39,587 bases of DNA from positions 1-39,587 of IMG/VR virus record IMGVR_UViG_3300021438_000033; one strand, given 5' to 3'. The translations under genes and the position numbers were made by a program. This DNA comes from a virus. Below are positions 3,863 to 39,576 of the stretch, piece by piece. The first letter of the stretch is position 1, and every line of letters begins with the position of its first letter. The notes beneath the pieces are model-generated. The model saw nothing but the letters and a program-made list of their open reading frames with translations, was not told where the DNA came from and searched no databases.

Positions 3863-5140
3863 TTATGCGCCCATCCAGCTACCAGTTTGCCCATTATCAT
3901 ACTCTTTTCTGCGTTTTATATTGTCATTGCGGAACATGTCAACGCAAGTTGCCAAGTATCTGAATGCGTCTGCGCCGTGCGAGTATTCATCATGCAACGG
4001 TCCAGTCGGCTGACCAGTAGTCTGATTGATACTGCGACGATAACGCTTGAGGCATTCTTGCAAGCGTTTAGTTTTCTCTTTATCCATCCATAGACGCGGA
4101 AATAGCATACGACTTAAACGTATGCCATGCTCAACATCGCCAATGGGGATAACTTCAACTTCCCAACCAAGCGCAGTCATAATTTCTGCAGCTGATTTGC
4201 CGGTTTTGTAGTCCTTATGCACTGCATCATGCGGCAACCACATTTTGCCCCAGTTGTAATTACGTCTGCGAAGTTCGCCCGAATACCAATCAAGCGTCTG
4301 GAATGATTCTTCGATGTAATCAATCACGCGGCATTCAGAGCCTGCGCGTTGCACCATGATGATTGACATAGCGTCATTCCAACCCAAGTCAACGACAATA
4401 TGCGTCTTGAGCATCGGATCGTGCGTGACCAGGTTAATGCGATGTTGTTCGACCATGAGCTGATATTCATCAGCATAGATAGCGCCATCGACTACTGTCT
4501 TTGGCTTGCCCAACCAAATGTTGTCGTAATCCTTTTTGTTATGCGCTTCGCAATGAGCGCGTTCGACTTCAAGGACTGTCGGAAACCAAGGATTATCCAT
4601 GTAGTTGATCTGAACTACATAGCTGTCTGGAACTTGATTAGCAATGAATCGCGTATACGTATCATCTGTATCCAAGTCTGGATTCATCGTGACCCAGATT
4701 TCAGATCCTTCAGCACGGATCGTTGGGATGAGAATGTCCCAGGACTTCTTAGAGACTGACTGCGCTTCTTCAATCCAGCAAATGTTGATATTCGCCATCG
4801 ACTTGATGGACTCAACCGTGTGATTCGCCAAACCTGAGAACGTGAATATCGTGCCATTTAAGCCACGAATCTCTGTCTCTGTGACTGTGTAGAAGTAACC
4901 GAGATTTAATGTCTGTATTTGGTCCACAAGCAGTGTATGGACCGATTGCTTGATTGACTTCTGCACTTCTCTAGCACAGAGAATACGCATTGGCTTTTCA
5001 GCACCCTTGATGAGCAATGCAGCAGAGACAGAAAAAGACTTACCGGAGCCTCTGCCGCCATGCAGAATCTTGTAGCGGTAGGGATCAAATAAGCCTTTTA
5101 GCTTGGGGGGGAATTTAGCTGTGGTTTCCATCAATTGCAT
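3863..5140 (-). CDS. Terminase large subunit (TerL)
   Basis: The packaging motor ATPase and nuclease, about 425 residues, Terminase_3-like. The Walker A motif GGRGSGKS is at about 28-35, the Walker B NICWIEEA at about 118-126, and the coupling segment WVTMNP at about 149-154. The C-terminal RNase H-like nuclease begins at VVDLGWNDA (about 249-257, metal-binding Asp 251). A TTG at 5143 would add one residue; I chose the ATG at 5140. No strong ribosome site is seen, and the start overlaps the end of the upstream 61-residue gene by 26 nt, which suggests translational coupling. Portal follows 2 nt after the stop. Confidence 0.95.
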   Translation of the reverse strand: MQLMETTAKFPPKLKGLFDPYRYKILHGGRGSGKSFSVSAALLIKGAEKPMRILCAREVQKSIKQSVHTLLVDQIQTLNLGYFYTVTETEIRGLNGTIFTFSGLANHTVESIKSMANINICWIEEAQSVSKKSWDILIPTIRAEGSEIWVTMNPDLDTDDTYTRFIANQVPDSYVVQINYMDNPWFPTVLEVERAHCEAHNKKDYDNIWLGKPKTVVDGAIYADEYQLMVEQHRINLVTHDPMLKTHIVVDLGWNDAMSIIMVQRAGSECRVIDYIEESFQTLDWYSGELRRRNYNWGKMWLPHDAVHKDYKTGKSAAEIMTALGWEVEVIPIGDVEHGIRLSRMLFPRLWMDKEKTKRLQECLKRYRRSINQTTGQPTGPLHDEYSHGADAFRYLATCVDMFRNDNIKRRKEYDNGQTGSWMGA

Positions 5141-8550: not shown

Positions 8551-8564
8551 ACGAGCATTGTTGC

Positions 8565-8570
8565 ATTATA
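8565..8570 (-). promoter_or_regulatory. Possible -10 element for rusA operon
   Basis: A perfect TATAAT on the minus strand, 15 nt upstream of the rusA ATG. No good -35 hexamer is seen at 16-18 nt; the first iteron lies just upstream at 8595. If used, the transcript would be nearly leaderless and could be controlled by the iteron-binding protein. Weak evidence. Confidence 0.3.
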
Positions 8571-8594
8571 AAGCATCTTGTGCAAACTTGATCT

Positions 8595-8801
8595 GACCCG
8601 TTCCCTGTTCCCTCACCTGTTCCCTGCTGTTCCCTAATTCCAAGGGAATGGGTGCAGGTCTAGTGAGAAGATTTAATTCTCACGACCTGTTCCCTGCATT
8701 TTTTCTTAAGGGGGAATAGGTCAAAGGGAATGGGTCAATTGACCAATTTTTGTACAATATTTTGATGGCGTTTTTCATAAAATTACGCTGACCCGTTCCC
8801 T
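8595..8801. repeat. Iteron cluster, candidate replication origin / control region
   Basis: Nine copies of a motif close to GACCYRTTCCCT lie in a 255-nt gap without genes. Forward copies are at 8595-8606, 8607-8613 (short), 8614-8625, 8628-8635 (short), 8684-8695 and 8790-8801. Inverted copies are at 8643-8655, 8711-8722 and 8725-8736. The region also holds a long dyad (8655-8689), a perfect palindrome GGTCAATTGACC (8733-8744) and an AT-rich stretch (8745-8788). This is the arrangement of an iteron-type origin, and it lies between the primase-helicase gene and rusA. It could instead be an operator array. Confidence 0.75.
8655..8689. repeat. Long inverted repeat inside the iteron region
   Basis: CAGGTC pairs with GACCTG and, after a TA bulge, GTGAGAA pairs with TTCTCAC around a 7-nt loop: 13 bp in total. 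Iterons of opposite orientation flank it. It could extrude as a cruciform or serve as a primase loading site (inference). Confidence 0.7.
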
Positions 8802-8805
8802 TTTT

Positions 8806-11262: not shown

Positions 11263-11291
11263 TTGACATCTTAGTTTACGCTCTGTAGCAT
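11263..11291 (+). promoter_or_regulatory. Rightward early promoter
   Basis: A perfect TTGACA (11263-11268) followed after 17 nt by TAGCAT (11286-11291). It points toward the Sak4-like gene, with a predicted start near 11298 and a GGAG ribosome site at 11326. It overlaps the leftward promoter face to face. Confidence 0.7.
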
Positions 11292-11297
11292 TGTCAA
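11268..11297 (-). promoter_or_regulatory. Leftward early promoter, overlapping the rightward one
   Basis: On the minus strand TTGACA (11297-11292) is followed after 18 nt by TAAGAT (11273-11268). The -10 of each promoter lies beside the -35 of the other, so polymerase bound to one should block the other. The two TTGACA sites also form the arms of an inverted repeat that a dimeric regulator could read. Confidence 0.6.
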
Positions 11298-11301
11298 CAG
11301 T

Positions 11302-11317
11302 CCCAGAGATCACTGGG
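11302..11317. promoter_or_regulatory. Palindrome CCCAG-N6-CTGGG, candidate operator
   Basis: CCCAG and CTGGG flank A-GATC-A: a 16-bp near-perfect palindrome just downstream of the predicted rightward transcription start. The position fits an operator for the small HTH protein, or a hairpin at the mRNA 5' end. Confidence 0.5.
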
Positions 11318-11337
11318 CACACACTGGAGTAAGAATC

Positions 11338-12018
11338 ATGGCAATAAATCTCAAGTCCACTAAAGGAGTGGCTACAGATGGCGGTGTTAAAGTCCTTGTC
11401 TATGGCGGTGCTGGCGCTGGTAAAACTTCCCTCATTGGAACGCTTCCAGATCCAATTATCATTTCTGCTGAAGCTGGCTTATTGTCGCTGGCTGATCTTG
11501 ACATTCCATACATTGAGGTTACGGATATGGCTTCCTTGCGCGAAGCGTATAGCTTTGTCGCATCTAGCAAAGACGCTGAACGATTTAGATCAGTGGCAAT
11601 TGACTCTATATCCGAAATCGCAGAAGTCGTACTTAATTCCGAAAAGAAGCAAACCAAAGATCCGCGTCAAGCCTACGGTGCGCTACAGGAGCAGATGACT
11701 GATCTGATTCGCGCATTTCGTGATTTGTCTGGAAAAAATGTCTATATGTCAGCCAAGATGGAAAAAGTGCAAGACGAATCTGGACGCATTTTGTATGGAC
11801 CATCTATGCCGGGTAACAAGCTTGCACAGATGCTTCCATACTTCTTTGACGAAGTGCTTGCATTGCGCGTAGAAAAAGATGACGAAGGAAAGTCACAACG
11901 CGCTTTGATGTGCGACTCTGATGGCCTATGGTCAGCTAAGGACCGCTCTGGAAAGCTGGATGCTTGGGAAATGGCTGATCTATCTTTTATCTTTAACAAA
12001 ATAGCAGGTAACAAATGA
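11338..12018 (+). CDS. Sak4-like AAA/RecA-type ATPase (phage recombination)
   Basis: A 226-residue ATPase of the phage AAA_24 / Sak4 group. Walker A GGAGAGKT is at 23-30, IIISAEAGLLSL follows, and the Walker B-like RSVAIDSISEI lies near 84-94. Proteins of this type act in single-strand annealing recombination, typically with an SSB-like partner. Here a DUF669 protein lies three genes downstream and RusA is in the facing operon. It is the first gene of the rightward unit, with ribosome site GGAGTAAG. Confidence 0.85.
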   Translation: MAINLKSTKGVATDGGVKVLVYGGAGAGKTSLIGTLPDPIIISAEAGLLSLADLDIPYIEVTDMASLREAYSFVASSKDAERFRSVAIDSISEIAEVVLNSEKKQTKDPRQAYGALQEQMTDLIRAFRDLSGKNVYMSAKMEKVQDESGRILYGPSMPGNKLAQMLPYFFDEVLALRVEKDDEGKSQRALMCDSDGLWSAKDRSGKLDAWEMADLSFIFNKIAGNK

Positions 12019-14967: not shown

Positions 14968-15067
14968 AAACACTATCATTATTCTTGCGCTAACCATGGC
15001 GTATGTCTATGCAAGCAATATGGATTATGAAGACGCTGTAATTGCACAGCAAGCACATAGTAAATAA
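14954..15067 (+). CDS. Tiny membrane protein
   Basis: A 37-residue ORF, MDTIRNTIIILALTMAYVYA followed by a short polar tail. It is one transmembrane helix or an uncleaved signal. It overlaps the end of the zinc-ribbon gene by 14 nt and has a GGAG-type site upstream. No family. Confidence 0.55.
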   Translation: MDTIRNTIIILALTMAYVYASNMDYEDAVIAQQAHSK

Positions 15068-15082
15068 GCGAGTAACTGTAAG

Positions 15083-15169
15083 CCAGCAGAGCAGTCATTG
15101 ATCGCTGGAGCCAAGACAGAGTGCTGTCACTCTCTCCTCATGTCTAATGGCAGAATACGCGAACTTGGC
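15083..15169 (+). ncRNA. Possible structured RNA / leader element
   Basis: In a 148-nt gap without genes, CCAGC (15083-15087) pairs with GCTGG (15104-15108). Next GCCAAG (15110-15115) pairs with CTTGGC (15164-15169), enclosing a perfect hairpin AGAGTG-CTGT-CACTCT (15118-15133). No T tract follows, so it is not a terminator. It could be a leader of the next gene or a small RNA; I see no known family. Confidence 0.35.
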
Positions 15170-15215
15170 AATTTCTAACTAAAACAACGATTTAATACAA
15201 GTAAGAAGTAACTAA

Positions 15216-16621: not shown

Positions 16622-16813
16622 ATGAGCAAATTTCAAACTTTTGTTATCGGATCATCATGTGTCATCCTTGCTGTATCAGCAATCTACTTTGGCTTTTTTG
16701 CCGGTCCAAAAACTGTTGAAATCGATGAGCAACACTTTCGATGCACAGCCGCTGAAGCACAAGGCATTAACGCTAAATGCACTCAGTACACCTATCTTGC
16801 TGGCGCTAGATGA
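16622..16813 (+). CDS. Small single-pass membrane protein
   Basis: A 63-residue protein, MSKFQTFVIGSSCVILAVSA followed by IYFGFFAG: one N-terminal transmembrane helix. A polar C-terminal part follows with two cysteines. The ATG at 16622 follows the preceding stop by one base and has GGAG 8 nt upstream. A longer reading frame opening at 16415 would overlap the previous gene by about 200 nt and is not used. Confidence 0.65.
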   Translation: MSKFQTFVIGSSCVILAVSAIYFGFFAGPKTVEIDEQHFRCTAAEAQGINAKCTQYTYLAGAR

Positions 16814-17073
16814 AAACATGCAATCTTTGTGGTGAATCCAAGCCAATGGATCAATTTACGATCCAATATGCTGGAACGCCAAAACAAAGACATATGGCCA
16901 GATGCAAGTCATGCAGAGCGAAAATCAACACAAAGATTAATCAACGAGCTAGGGAAGCTAAAGATTTAATCATCCATGAAGAAACGCCATGTCCTTGTGA
17001 TGCATGCTTCAAGCAACTTAATTGCAAAGCTGAGTGTGCAAGCTATAGGACTTGGATGGAACATGGTGTATAA
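16810..17073 (+). CDS. Zinc-finger protein, HNH/endonuclease-associated type
   Basis: An 87-residue protein starting MKTCNLCGESKPMDQF, with a second CKSC knuckle about 25 residues later. This is the zinc finger often found at the N-terminus of phage HNH or endonuclease VII-like proteins. Here the nuclease part is missing and replaced by a second Cys cluster (CPCDACFKQLNCKAEC). It probably binds DNA or protein. It overlaps the upstream gene by 4 nt. Confidence 0.7.
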   Translation: MKTCNLCGESKPMDQFTIQYAGTPKQRHMARCKSCRAKINTKINQRAREAKDLIIHEETPCPCDACFKQLNCKAECASYRTWMEHGV

Positions 17074-17079
17074 AGAGTC

Positions 17080-17135
17080 TGGCCCAGATCCAATTTAAAT
17101 AAATTGGCTGTATGGGAGTACATTCTGGGCCACCA
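17080..17135 (+). ncRNA. Compact three-way-junction RNA with tRNA-like ACCA end (element A)
   Basis: TGGCCCAGA (17080-17088) pairs perfectly with TCTGGGCCA (17124-17132). Inside are two hairpins: CCAATTT-AAAT-AAATTGG (17090-17107) and TGTA-TGGGAG-TACA (17109-17122). The three stems are joined by single nucleotides. CCA follows at 17133-17135, so the end looks like a tRNA acceptor with discriminator A, but a T arm is missing and the total is only 56 nt. No open reading frame covers it and there is no T tract. Function unknown. Confidence 0.65.
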
Positions 17136-17147
17136 TATAAAAAGTTA

Positions 17148-17213
17148 TGGGAACACCAATCACTTATTTTCATCAACGCCAGGTAAGAGGGGCGTGATTG
17201 AGTGTTCCCACCA
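17148..17213 (+). ncRNA. Long hairpin RNA with tRNA-like ACCA end (element B)
   Basis: TGGGAACAC (17148-17156) pairs with GTGTTCCCA (17202-17210) and, after a C / GA bulge, AATCAC (17158-17163) pairs with GTGATT (17194-17199). The 30-nt top may hold a small GCC/GGC stem. CCA follows at 17211-17213, and both elements are followed by TAT, so they share CCACCATAT. It starts 12 nt after element A. It is not a standard tRNA. The next gene starts 18 nt later. Confidence 0.6.
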
Positions 17214-17230
17214 TATTGAGAGTAAGAACA

Positions 17231-17464
17231 ATGACCGCACCGAAGAAGATTTGGATGTGTTTTGATGATGAAACTTGCGGTATGGGTAGAAATTACATCC
17301 GTGCCGACCTTGTTGATGGTTTGGTTGAGGCGTTGGGAGAATTATACGAAGTAGCAAAAAACGTAGAAGACGAAGGCCCATTAGGGGAGGGATGGCAATC
17401 AGACTGGTTAATCGAAGAGCTACAAAAAGCCCGAGCCGCGCTGAAAGCGTTGGAGGAAGAATGA
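17231..17464 (+). CDS. Hypothetical protein
   Basis: A 77-residue acidic protein, MTAPKKIWMCFDDETCGMGR followed by a long helix (LVDGLVEALGELYEVAKNVED) and a second one. The start at 17231 has GAGAGTAAGAACA upstream. This type of small protein is common in phage accessory operons; no function known. Confidence 0.65.
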   Translation: MTAPKKIWMCFDDETCGMGRNYIRADLVDGLVEALGELYEVAKNVEDEGPLGEGWQSDWLIEELQKARAALKALEEE

Positions 17465-17625
17465 ACAGCCATGAAACAGCCCTAGAAGAACTTCAAATGC
17501 TGCGCGCCTCTTTGCAAGTAGTCTCTTTTGCTTACATGAAAGATGCTCGATTGGTCGGCTCCGCTATAGCGTATTTAGCAATGTTGGAAGACTTGCTTAA
17601 AGAACGGCAAAAGGGGGAAAAATGA
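17461..17625 (+). CDS. Small helical hypothetical protein
   Basis: A 54-residue protein starting at the ATG that overlaps the previous stop (ATGA). It is a near-continuous helix (ALEELQMLRASLQVV, IAYLAMLEDLLKERQ). Upstream in-frame starts would overlap the previous gene heavily and are not used. Function unknown. Confidence 0.6.
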   Translation: MNSHETALEELQMLRASLQVVSFAYMKDARLVGSAIAYLAMLEDLLKERQKGEK

Positions 17626-18122
17626 GCGACAAAGAACTTACCCAGCTGGAATTACAAGAATGCCTTCGTTACGAGGAAGGTACAGGGTTCTTTTTCTGGA
17701 TTAAAAGAAACAGTAAACGCATAAAAGTTGGGGATAAAGCTGGAACAAGACCAAATTGTGATGGGTACGCAGAAATAATGGTGAACAATGTTTTGTACAA
17801 GGCTCATCGTTTGGCTTGGTTATATGTGTATGGCGAATGGCCTCAGAGTCAAATAGATCACATTAATGGCGATAGGTTCGACAACCGTATTGCAAATCTG
17901 CGGGACGCTACACCAAAGGAAAATTCTTACAATCGCATACGAGCAAGCAAAAATAACAAAACGTCTTTACTGGGCGTGGTGACAAAGCCGAACGGAACTT
18001 TTTACGCTGAGATTAGGGTAGAGAAAAAGAAGTTTCATCTAGGATCTTTCCCCTCCGCAGAGTTAGCGCATCAAGCATATCTTGAAGCCAAAGAAAAATT
18101 GCATACGATGGAGGCGGTATGA
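17622..18122 (+). CDS. HNH endonuclease with AP2 DNA-binding domain
   Basis: A 166-residue homing-type nuclease. The HNH core runs from AHRLAWLYVYGEWPQSQIDH to NPLR-like NRIANLRDATPKENSYN (about 61-104), with Asp79, His80 and the Asn residues at 88, 92 and 101. The C-terminal AP2-like domain is at about 115-160 (LLGVVTKPNGTFYAEIRV, FHLGSFPSAELAHQAY). It sits between small accessory genes, with ATGA overlaps on both sides. Free-standing enzymes of this kind spread by cutting related phages that lack them. Confidence 0.93.
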   Translation: MSDKELTQLELQECLRYEEGTGFFFWIKRNSKRIKVGDKAGTRPNCDGYAEIMVNNVLYKAHRLAWLYVYGEWPQSQIDHINGDRFDNRIANLRDATPKENSYNRIRASKNNKTSLLGVVTKPNGTFYAEIRVEKKKFHLGSFPSAELAHQAYLEAKEKLHTMEAV

Positions 18123-18409
18123 GCGAAGACAAAGAACTGTTGACCTTGGCGGCGAAAGCGGCGGGGATTGAGATTGCACATATTGAACTTCTGGGTGATG
18201 ACGGATGGAACCCCCTAACCGACGATGGTGACGCTCTGCGCCTTGCGGTGAAGTTGAGGATGAATGTTGAGTTCTTTGACGATGTTGTTTGGGCTTTCGA
18301 CAATGACTACATAGATCCTATTGAAGAGCCTTATAAAGACGACCCCTACGCCGCAACCCGTAGAGCCATCGTCCGGGCAGCGGCTGAGATTGGCAGGGGG
18401 ATGGAATGA
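18119..18409 (+). CDS. Conserved phage hypothetical protein
   Basis: A 96-residue protein with ELLTLAAKAAGI, then WNPLTDDGDALRLAVKL and a C-terminal RRAIVRAAAEIGR. I know this combination from many proteobacterial phage genomes as an accessory protein without known function. It overlaps neighbours by 4 nt on both sides. Confidence 0.75.
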   Translation: MSEDKELLTLAAKAAGIEIAHIELLGDDGWNPLTDDGDALRLAVKLRMNVEFFDDVVWAFDNDYIDPIEEPYKDDPYAATRRAIVRAAAEIGRGME

Positions 18410-18708
18410 GCGAAACAAAATTCACGCCGGGGCCTTGGAAAGTAACTGTTTCTGAGAATGGCATTGATGTGGGCGTTGACGGACTAGATGGAGAGACAAT
18501 AACCGGATGGATTGAACCATACGATGCCCACCTAATCGCCGCCGCGCCTGAGCTTTATGGGGTGGTTGAAAAATTGGCTAAGTGGAACAAGGATTACCCA
18601 TCAGCTCGCGTTTATGGCTACGGAGACATCAAACAAATCGCGGAAGAAATGGACGCAATTAACGCCCAAGCAATAGCCGCCCTAGCCAAAGCCAGAGGTG
18701 AAGCATGA
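18406..18708 (+). CDS. Conserved phage hypothetical protein (TPGPW type)
   Basis: A 100-residue protein beginning MSETKFTPGPWKVTVSENG, with DAHLIAAAPELYGVVEKL in the middle and a helix rich in Ala at the end. The TPGPW / LIAAAPELY pair marks a widespread phage accessory family of unknown function. It is coupled to its neighbours through ATGA overlaps. Confidence 0.8.
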   Translation: MSETKFTPGPWKVTVSENGIDVGVDGLDGETITGWIEPYDAHLIAAAPELYGVVEKLAKWNKDYPSARVYGYGDIKQIAEEMDAINAQAIAALAKARGEA

Positions 18709-18983
18709 GCTGCAACTGCAAATCAACCATTCAGGACAAGCTGGTGTCTTCTTACAGCGAAAAGAACCCAGAAGACTTCGACGTTAGCGCGACCATTGGC
18801 GGCTACAGCCTCGCCCTAAATTTTGAGCAAAACAAGATGCGATTAGCCGGGACTTTGCCGGTAACAATTGCTTACAGTCGGAAGAACAAAAAGGGCGAGA
18901 CAAAGGCCAAGACCACCAAGACCTTCATGTTTTTCAACTACTGCCCCTTTTGCGGAAAATCTGTTGCTGAGGATGAAGCATGA
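18705..18983 (+). CDS. Zinc-binding hypothetical protein
   Basis: A 92-residue protein with CNCK at the N-terminus and YCPFCGKSV at the C-terminus, bringing both ends together around one metal. A beta-rich middle (TIGGYSLALNFEQNKMRLAG) lies between. Common in phage accessory operons; function unknown. Confidence 0.75.
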   Translation: MSCNCKSTIQDKLVSSYSEKNPEDFDVSATIGGYSLALNFEQNKMRLAGTLPVTIAYSRKNKKGETKAKTTKTFMFFNYCPFCGKSVAEDEA

Positions 18984-38008: not shown

Positions 38009-39576
38009 TTAACCAGTTACGCGGGTAGCGAGTTCGGGATAGATGGTTGACCAGCCGTACAGTACGTCAAGTCGGCAAGGCAGCTGATCGCTGTTAATGT
38101 CGTACTGACGAACAAGACGGATAGAAACGCCATCTGCTGATGCGCGTCCAGCCATGTCAACACCCTGCGGCAGAATGAGATCCGCTGTGCCGAAAGCAAA
38201 AGCATCACGATGGAATGCAATAGCGTTCGGGTAAGAAGAACCATTGGAGCCAGAGATAACGGAAGCGTTACCACTCGGGATCGTACCGGTTGTGCTAGTT
38301 ACGTTCTGGAACTGACCAGAGAATACCGGAGTCGGGAACACAGAAAGGGTCTGTGAAGAACCAGTACCGGTAACGCCAGCAGTAAGAACGAAGTTACGCA
38401 GTGCGCCAGTAGACTGACGGTTCTGCGGGTTGACTGCATATACACCAGGAATGGTGAAAACAGTACCCTGAGTCAGCGTCTTGCCAGAGCTAATCGTTGC
38501 AGTAAGAGAGAATGCAGTCTGAGCATTCGTCTGAACTGAACCACCAGCCTGTGCAGCAACTGCCAAAGTGTCAGTACCAACAATGAACGTACCAGAAGTG
38601 AAGTTGCCTACGTTCTGATCCATTGCCATATTGAAGCCGAGAGTATTGTCTCCAAGCGCACCTTTTTCAAAGATACGAGAGATAGTACCCTGCGGATTGA
38701 ACAGGTTAGTAAGACCAGAAACGATGCCAACTTCCACTGTCGGATCGACAACAAAGTGACGATCTTCGTCAACCGGAGCCGCTTCCTGATTCAGACGAGC
38801 GCGAGCAGCAAGGATTGCAGCCGTAGACTGAGCCTGAGTCGGAGGAGTAACGGTATTGGTCAACTGACCAGGAGTACCAACAAGGTTGTAGACGTTAAGG
38901 AACTGCTGGAGACCGTCATAGTCGATCTTATTCGCAACAGCCGCTACAGCAGGCTTGATGAAACGATCAGAGAAATCGCTGATGTTCATCGTGAGATCCT
39001 GGGTCGTAAACGCCATGTCTACGCCGAACTGTGTTCCAAGCGTCAGCGGTACATACGTTTCAACAGAGGATTCAACCTGAAGCGCAGGGCCGGTACGACC
39101 GACATAACGCGGGGGCTTACGCAGATTGATTGTGGTGCCGCATTTTCTTATGACTAGCTTTTTAATTTCCTAGTCCTAGCCTTTTCAAGCTAGATGAGAC
39201 TATATCTTCATCCCAGTAGGATGCAGGGCACTCTTGGAACTTCATCGACCGTTCTGGCCGGTATGTTCTAGTCGTTGAACCTTCAACTCATTCCTGAGTC
39301 GCTTGGCTGCTGATTTCCCAATCCTAAAACTTTTCAGTCCTTCACGCTTGTCTTTGCAGACTACGTTGTGGCATTTAGGCTCTAAGGGAGTTCCAGCAAT
39401 TCACCCTGTTTGCATCTAAACCTTACGGCTTAGAGAGACCAGTTGATCTTTGCACCTTCGATTGCGAACTTATCGTCATACTGACGAGAAACCGCACGAG
39501 TAAATACCAACTGGTTGGTAAGTACGCGCAGAGCTTCGTTCGTAATCATACTAATAGTAAGCAACTGATTGCTCAT
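38009..39576 (-). CDS. Major coat protein, P22 gp5-like, split by a group I intron
   Basis: Two exons: 39446-39576 (131 nt) and 38009-39140 (1132 nt). Joined, they give 420 residues and stop, close to the 430 of P22 coat. The splice falls in the Ile44 codon after its second base and restores GAKIGTTIN, the same as the uninterrupted copy at the left end. Without splicing, translation would stop in the intron after about six codons. The protein has P22 coat features: N-arm, AFTTQDLTMNISDFSDRFIK in the core and LDVLYGWSTIYPELATRVTG at the end. Ribosome site AGGT precedes the ATG; the promoter would be the one seen at the left end. Confidence 0.93.
39141..39445 (-). other. Group I intron (class IA-like), 305 nt, no ORF
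   Basis: The 5' exon ends in U and the intron ends in G, as required. P1 pairs exon AAAGAU with GUCUCU (one mismatch, U-G at the splice site), and CUG before it can pair with exon CGG (P10). P2 is CUAAGCC-GUAA-GGUUUAG. P, Q, R and S are present: AATTGCTGGAAC (39390-39401), AAATCAGCAGCC start at 39316, GTTCAACGACTAGA (39267-39280) and AAGATATAGTCT (39197-39208). P3 is CAGGG/CCCUG, P7 GACUA/UAGUC, P8 CAUCC/GGAUG, with two P9-type hairpins at the end. Extra bases between P7 and P3 suggest class IA. No endonuclease gene is inside. Confidence 0.97.

Follow-up and report, generated by a model that had tools for sequence, protein, structure and literature searches.

Two adjacent structured RNA elements in an operon gap of a freshwater-type phage, one of them a member of a new conserved RNA family

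The window analyzed here is a 39,587-base virus record from a freshwater-type phage and carries two folded RNA elements, A and B, which follow one another in a gap between two genes. Element A (17080-17132, + strand) is a member of a new conserved RNA family that Rfam does not hold, and the comparison of its relatives supports selection on A, with the shape kept while the letters change. Element B (17148-17210, + strand) represents a second, looser type than the A family. Our leading, tentative reading, drawn from sequence comparison, is that A and B are cis-acting structured elements of a polycistronic phage mRNA that would mark a segment border right behind a stop codon.

Element A reads as a three-way junction whose stems of 9, 7 and 4 bp are joined by the single-base linkers T, C and T. 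P1 pairs TGGCCCAGA (17080-17088) with TCTGGGCCA (17124-17132), P2 pairs CCAATTT with AAATTGG (17090-17096 and 17101-17107), and P3 pairs TGTA with TACA (17109-17112 and 17119-17122) around a TGGGAG loop. Element B is a hairpin of 9 bp plus 6 bp: its outer stem pairs TGGGAACAC (17148-17156) with GTGTTCCCA (17202-17210), an internal loop (C / GA) follows, and the inner stem, AATCAC with GTGATT, closes an apical loop of ~30 nt. In both elements the stem is followed by ACCATAT. The tail of A continues into the A/U-rich, single-stranded linker CCATATAAAAAGTTA (17133-17147, + strand), a possible nuclease site, and the tail of B is CCATAT (17211-17216, + strand). These folds and ends had been described in the original prediction; we read them directly in the sequence, and the minimum free energy (MFE) structures agree with them (A, -22.9 kcal/mol, z -2.9; B, -25.8 kcal/mol, z -4.3; whole gap, z -3.6). 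By energy, A ranks 20th and B 26th of 6,588 windows, and stability by itself is therefore unexceptional. Perfect stems of 8 bp or longer with ACCA directly behind them were found three times on the two strands, against 0.23 expected per genome, and two of the three are the neighbors A and B. None of 300 dinucleotide shuffles gave two such elements within 100 nt, in keeping with the earlier argument that the paired neighbors are not due to chance.

The two elements fill a 157-nt gap (17074-17230) in an operon whose ORFs elsewhere overlap by a few bases, as had been predicted. Upstream lies the gene for an 87-aa Cys-rich protein (16810-17073, + strand), which has a weak match to Lar-like/HNH families and none in the bacterial and archaeal genome collection; downstream lies the gene for a 77-aa protein (17231-17464, + strand) of the family APKKIW...YIRADLVDGLVEAL. 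No good promoter was found near A or B, and no terminator-like site on the + strand from 16682 to 18798. Neither element is an intrinsic terminator, as the tails CCATATAAAA and CCATATTGAG have no U tract. The prediction that the gap holds neither an ORF nor a T tract is right for the T tract and not quite right for the ORF: the frame of the upstream gene runs on past its stop for 63 codons, spanning both elements, to a TGA at 17263-17265. Another gap of the window (14968-15215) showed no unusual structure (z -0.08). Elsewhere in the window, a gap between minus-strand genes (8551-8805) contains a 15-bp perfect stem, AAAGGGAATGGGTCA...TGACCCGTTCCCTTT, followed by a T run, which is probably a terminator, and a group I intron (39176-39455, minus strand, 85.9 bits) lies near the record end, upstream of a minus-strand ORF (38009-39016).

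Relatives of A came in part from contigs gathered via the downstream protein family, whose gaps were scanned for inverted repeats with any tail allowed. This tail-blind scan found A-like folds in L192 and L167, a scan for stem plus ACC yielded L156, and a motif scan of viral contigs (TTTTAAC...GTA(N)GGAGTAC) added L223, L224, L225, L229, L234 and L249. An energy-ranked stem-ACC scan was swamped by GC-rich coding sequence, and the pattern GGGAACAC..GTGTTCCCACCA had zero matches in viral contigs. Counted as distinct contigs, with the duplicates L156/L212/L240, L192/L226 and L167/L188/L248 merged, the family has 10 instances and 6 distinct sequences, the window included. In a structure-based alignment 97.5% of the cells pair. 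Six of the 14 pairs of P1 and P2 are altered on both sides, U-G pairs among them, a level reached by none of 500 shuffles; the share from P1 comes largely from one sequence, L192. When the structure was slid along the alignment, pairing dropped to 26-56%. Leaving out the window, whose P2 is shifted relative to that of its relatives, gave 98.6% of cells paired and again six pairs altered on both sides. Two loops do not vary within the family: UUU.AA in the P2 loop and GUA..GGAG.UAC in P3, which is invariant in all members and whose pairing is unproven by covariation.

A covariance model built from the five non-window sequences matched A at 17081-17134 (34.6 bits, E 3.5e-6) and gave no other noteworthy match in the window. 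With the window included, the model recovered only known members over 1.05 Mb of related loci, the next match having an E of 2.1. The held-out match and the compensatory pairs together place A in the family, and the compensatory changes in relatives, which the original prediction had named as a check on its claim, are seen for A. The suggestion of an undescribed phage RNA also holds. A cmscan of Rfam 15, including C4 (RF01695), gave nothing at gathering score and three matches at E up to 10, far under their gathering scores. BLAST of the gap against 50,697 phage records returned one chance match, the strict A motif is absent from the bacterial and archaeal genome collection, and we found no description of the family in the open-access literature.

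The position of A is nearly as constant as its fold. In the window the upstream stop codon lies 6 nt before A. The orthologous Cys-rich gene precedes A in the window, L224, L225, L229, L234 and L249, and a shorter relative of that gene in L188 and L223; wherever the upstream gene is clear, as in all eight of these, A starts 5-6 nt past the stop. Unrelated genes stand upstream in L212, where A again starts 5 nt past the stop, and in L192, where the reading frame is uncertain and the distance is 8 or 13 nt. A is always on the operon strand. A thus keeps a near-fixed place behind a stop, lies consistently on the coding strand, brings no terminator with it and retains its fold while neighboring genes change, all of which points to an RNA element carried in the operon mRNA. 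In the close relative L109, which has both the upstream gene and an HNH gene, no element separates the two, so A is dispensable. The content of the gap also differs among relatives: further folds lie 3' of A in L225, L229 and L212, A stands alone right before a Shine-Dalgarno site in L188 and L223, and L234 is without the middle modules of L225, which suggests that modules can be lost singly. In the same operon, small ORFs consisting of nearly nothing except GN/GD/GY repeats occur at L223 6159-6446 and L144 about 4740-4990.

A stem so close behind a stop codon could also act on the terminating ribosome, by readthrough, slow release or re-initiation. The spacing of 5-9 nt equals that of many recoding stimulators, and the frame in the window does stay open past the stop; that open frame is not kept in the relatives, however, with a TGA inside P1 in L224 and L225, and single-base indels between L224 and L229 shift the frame and preserve the RNA. 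From these indels we conclude that A is not protein-coding, and we regard a role in translation as improbable. Farther still from likely is an element acting as DNA (a cruciform, a recombination site or a protein site) or a product of chance. The perfect palindromic arms and the gain and loss of modules would suit such an element, whereas the unvarying coding strand, the U-G pairs in the covariation, the near-fixed place behind the stop and the outcome of the 300 shuffles all speak against it.

Features in common with tRNAs are an acceptor-like stem, an ACC(A) end and a junction with arms. The earlier suggestion of truncated tRNA-like decoys, as mimicry of a tRNA 3' end, is not borne out by the relatives. 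The ACC tail of A is common to L212, L224/L225/L249, L229 and L234, but two A-type lineages, L188/L223 and L192, have ACT, and where ACC is present the next base is A in the window and L146 alone, being C or T in the relatives. A conserved CCA end is therefore absent. Also, unlike tRNAs, A and B have neither a T-loop nor an anticodon arm, and ARAGORN and Rfam RF00005 match only a tRNA-Thr (676-751) in the window.

Element B is likely akin, by sequence and flanks, to elements at L145 4712-4768 and L205 7468-7525 (GGGAAC...GUUCCCACC). Both of these read GGGAACC...GGTTCCCACCC, their flanks resemble those of B (TTAYGGGAAC, GTTCCCACC), and both lie in operon gaps, the one in L176, which is the same contig as L205, 5-6 nt past a stop. 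The type has only three members, with P1 nearly unchanged among them. A 16-mer of B had 100 matches in viral contigs, all without its 3' half. In L145 a tRNA-Gln (TTG) gene and then further hairpins (4522-4700) precede the B-like element. Two other stop-proximal types were found: an element in L146 (GGGGGCGG...CCGCCCCCACCATA), 7 nt past a stop, and a type GCCGCCC...GGGGCGGC in L111, L190, L199 and L200, which again has UUUUUAA or UUUUAA plus GGGAGUA. An element at L168 12724-12781 was excluded; it has the stem-ACC end and follows a promoter-like stretch, on another plan. Gap stems of 11-12 bp, AAGGGAACA...TGTTCCCT, in other relatives (L104 415-657 and L162 7516-7757) may be another element type.

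To avoid bias from the earlier ACC-based searching, we scanned blind to ACC, taking all stops of ORFs of at least 60 codons in the group of relatives and GC-rich stems of at least 7 pairs with any following sequence. Such stems numbered 19 at 5-9 nt past stops against 4.8 per 5-nt bin further off, a 4-fold enrichment; in two control sets of other viral contigs the ratio at 5-9 nt was 0.8- and 1.5-fold. Among distinct stems, ACC follows 9 of the 17 at 5-9 nt and 5 of the 91 elsewhere (Fisher p 8e-6). Of the five, one is B and another a repeat reading of L212. The p value is a guide only and an optimistic one, as homologous elements are non-independent, ORFs were called in a simple way and operon kinship was used to pick the group. 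The ACC-tailed stop-proximal stems fall into about four sequence types: A, B, the L146 type and the GCCGCCC type.

This association of stem and ACC is an argument for an explanation that we consider possible and rather unlikely, in which RNase P would read the stem plus ACC like an acceptor stem plus RCC and cut at the 5' foot of P1, 5-9 nt past the stop, thereby splitting the mRNA or freeing small RNAs. It is RCC, not the last A, that pairs with RNase P RNA (PMC12710915), and phages offer precedents in the phi80 M3 RNA and the P1/P7 C4 RNA, both reported to be cut by RNase P (PMC11143913). Like A and B, these are short phage folds, and the enzyme recognizes a stem with RCC behind it; they differ in that A and B are putative substrates only and that A and B have no Rfam match at gathering score (cmscan to E 10), sit in a gap between two genes and, for A, carry a conserved GGAG loop (M3 was compared by description only). 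ACT in two A-type lineages and the lack of a T-loop-like arm stacked on P1 weigh against RNase P. A broader proposal, which we put forward as a doubtful one, treats such elements as a class of exchangeable cassettes, of several unrelated sequences, built on one plan, a GC-rich stem 5-9 nt past the stop and then ACC. The terminating ribosome would decide on RNase P cutting: a ribosome at the stop would melt the stem, and an untranslated message would fold and be cut.

One of the folds behind A in some relatives has counterparts in other phages. A near-identical hairpin, GACAGCCNGGAAAGACNGGC, whose two N positions pair (CCGG/CCGG, CCCG/CGGG), occurs among the folds after A at L225 5212-5231, L229 6281-6300 and L212 6550-6569. 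It also occurs in gaps of unrelated phages and prophages: Enterobacteria phage mEp390, Stenotrophomonas phage BUCT708, Pseudomonas phage Medea1, Acinetobacter phage Alexa, Klebsiella phage P7641, Cronobacter phage ESP2949-1 and an E. coli prophage. Copies were located at L251 1503-1522, L254 454-473 and 1009-1028, L252 1502-1521, L255 2430-2449, L258 1502-1521, L259 1510-1529 and L260 1531-1550. The hairpin stands several times in fold arrays, and a scan of four loci gave no Rfam match; one BUCT708 copy overlaps a short annotated hypothetical ORF. Gut phages and the record of a Phocaeicola plasmid have a related exact match of 23-25 nt. Prophages and phages of E. coli and Klebsiella carry, behind a CI-type repressor gene, non-coding stretches 0.3 to 1 kb long (L260 1077-2109, L261 1300-2257, L255 1853-2555, L251 1473-1782) with many stable hairpins and a terminator-like fold behind GCTGTGTGTAGTCTT.

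Such arrays raise the thought that the gap is itself an array of stable modules cut from the transcript, which would act in trans as decoys for a host or defense protein. The invariant loops, the tandem modules (A and B in the window, A and more folds in L225 and L229) and the hairpin common to arrays in mEp390, BUCT708, Medea1 and prophages are consistent with this. A fixed spacing to the stop would not be expected of a free RNA, though, the lone A of L188 and L223 sits right before a Shine-Dalgarno site, and the shared hairpin is absent from the window; we consider trans-acting small RNAs unlikely. The arrays bear also on put-like antitermination RNAs, or other RNAs that bind RNA polymerase, since those of E. 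coli and Klebsiella are comparable: they separate the repressor gene from the genes that follow, contain a terminator-like fold and are preceded by a promoter-like stretch. The put RNAs of phage HK022 are about 70 nt long, form two stem-loops behind PL and PR (PMC9378689) and bind the zinc-binding domain of the RNAP beta' subunit. Two adjacent folds in a phage operon are a feature in common. Compared without sequences, however, the fold of A and B differs and they are not near a promoter, A lying ~5.7 kb downstream of the probable start of the operon near 11263-11338, whereas put RNAs sit behind early promoters. A put-like function thus seems quite improbable.

We return to the intercistronic border element as the reading that we tentatively prefer. 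The folded element would form the border between two mRNA segments, and the A/U-rich linker that follows would be cut. Most likely, it would then halt 3'-to-5' exonucleases chewing back from that cut, so that the upstream message would keep a stable 3' end a few bases past its stop codon. The ACC behind the stem may in addition permit an RNase P cut 5' of the stem; among possible nucleases this enzyme is the strongest candidate, because it contacts RCC behind a stem and cuts phage RNAs. A precedent is the galE hairpin, which at a cistron border blocks exonuclease and fixes the 3' end (PMC11925234). Like galE and REP-type 3' stabilizers, A and B place a stem at a cistron border within an operon; A differs in its three-way junction fold, its unvarying loops and its near-constant distance from the stop. 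Its occurrence behind unrelated genes (L212, L192) and the loss of single modules favor a border element; its absence from L109 weighs against one. The invariant UUU.AA and GUA-GGAG-UAC loops, which a generic exonuclease block does not require, argue against a plain block and for something more specific, and a protein or RNA may also bind them. CsrA/RsmA, considered as a ligand of a GGA loop because the loop of A contains GGAG, was dropped, B and its relatives having no GGA loop.

What is gained is a covarying phage RNA family that Rfam lacks, together with a measurable rule, a stem 5-9 nt past the stop with ACC behind it. The rule points to a connection of translation end with mRNA processing in compact phage operons. 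Gaps in phage operons can house modular RNA arrays that gene-based annotation overlooks.
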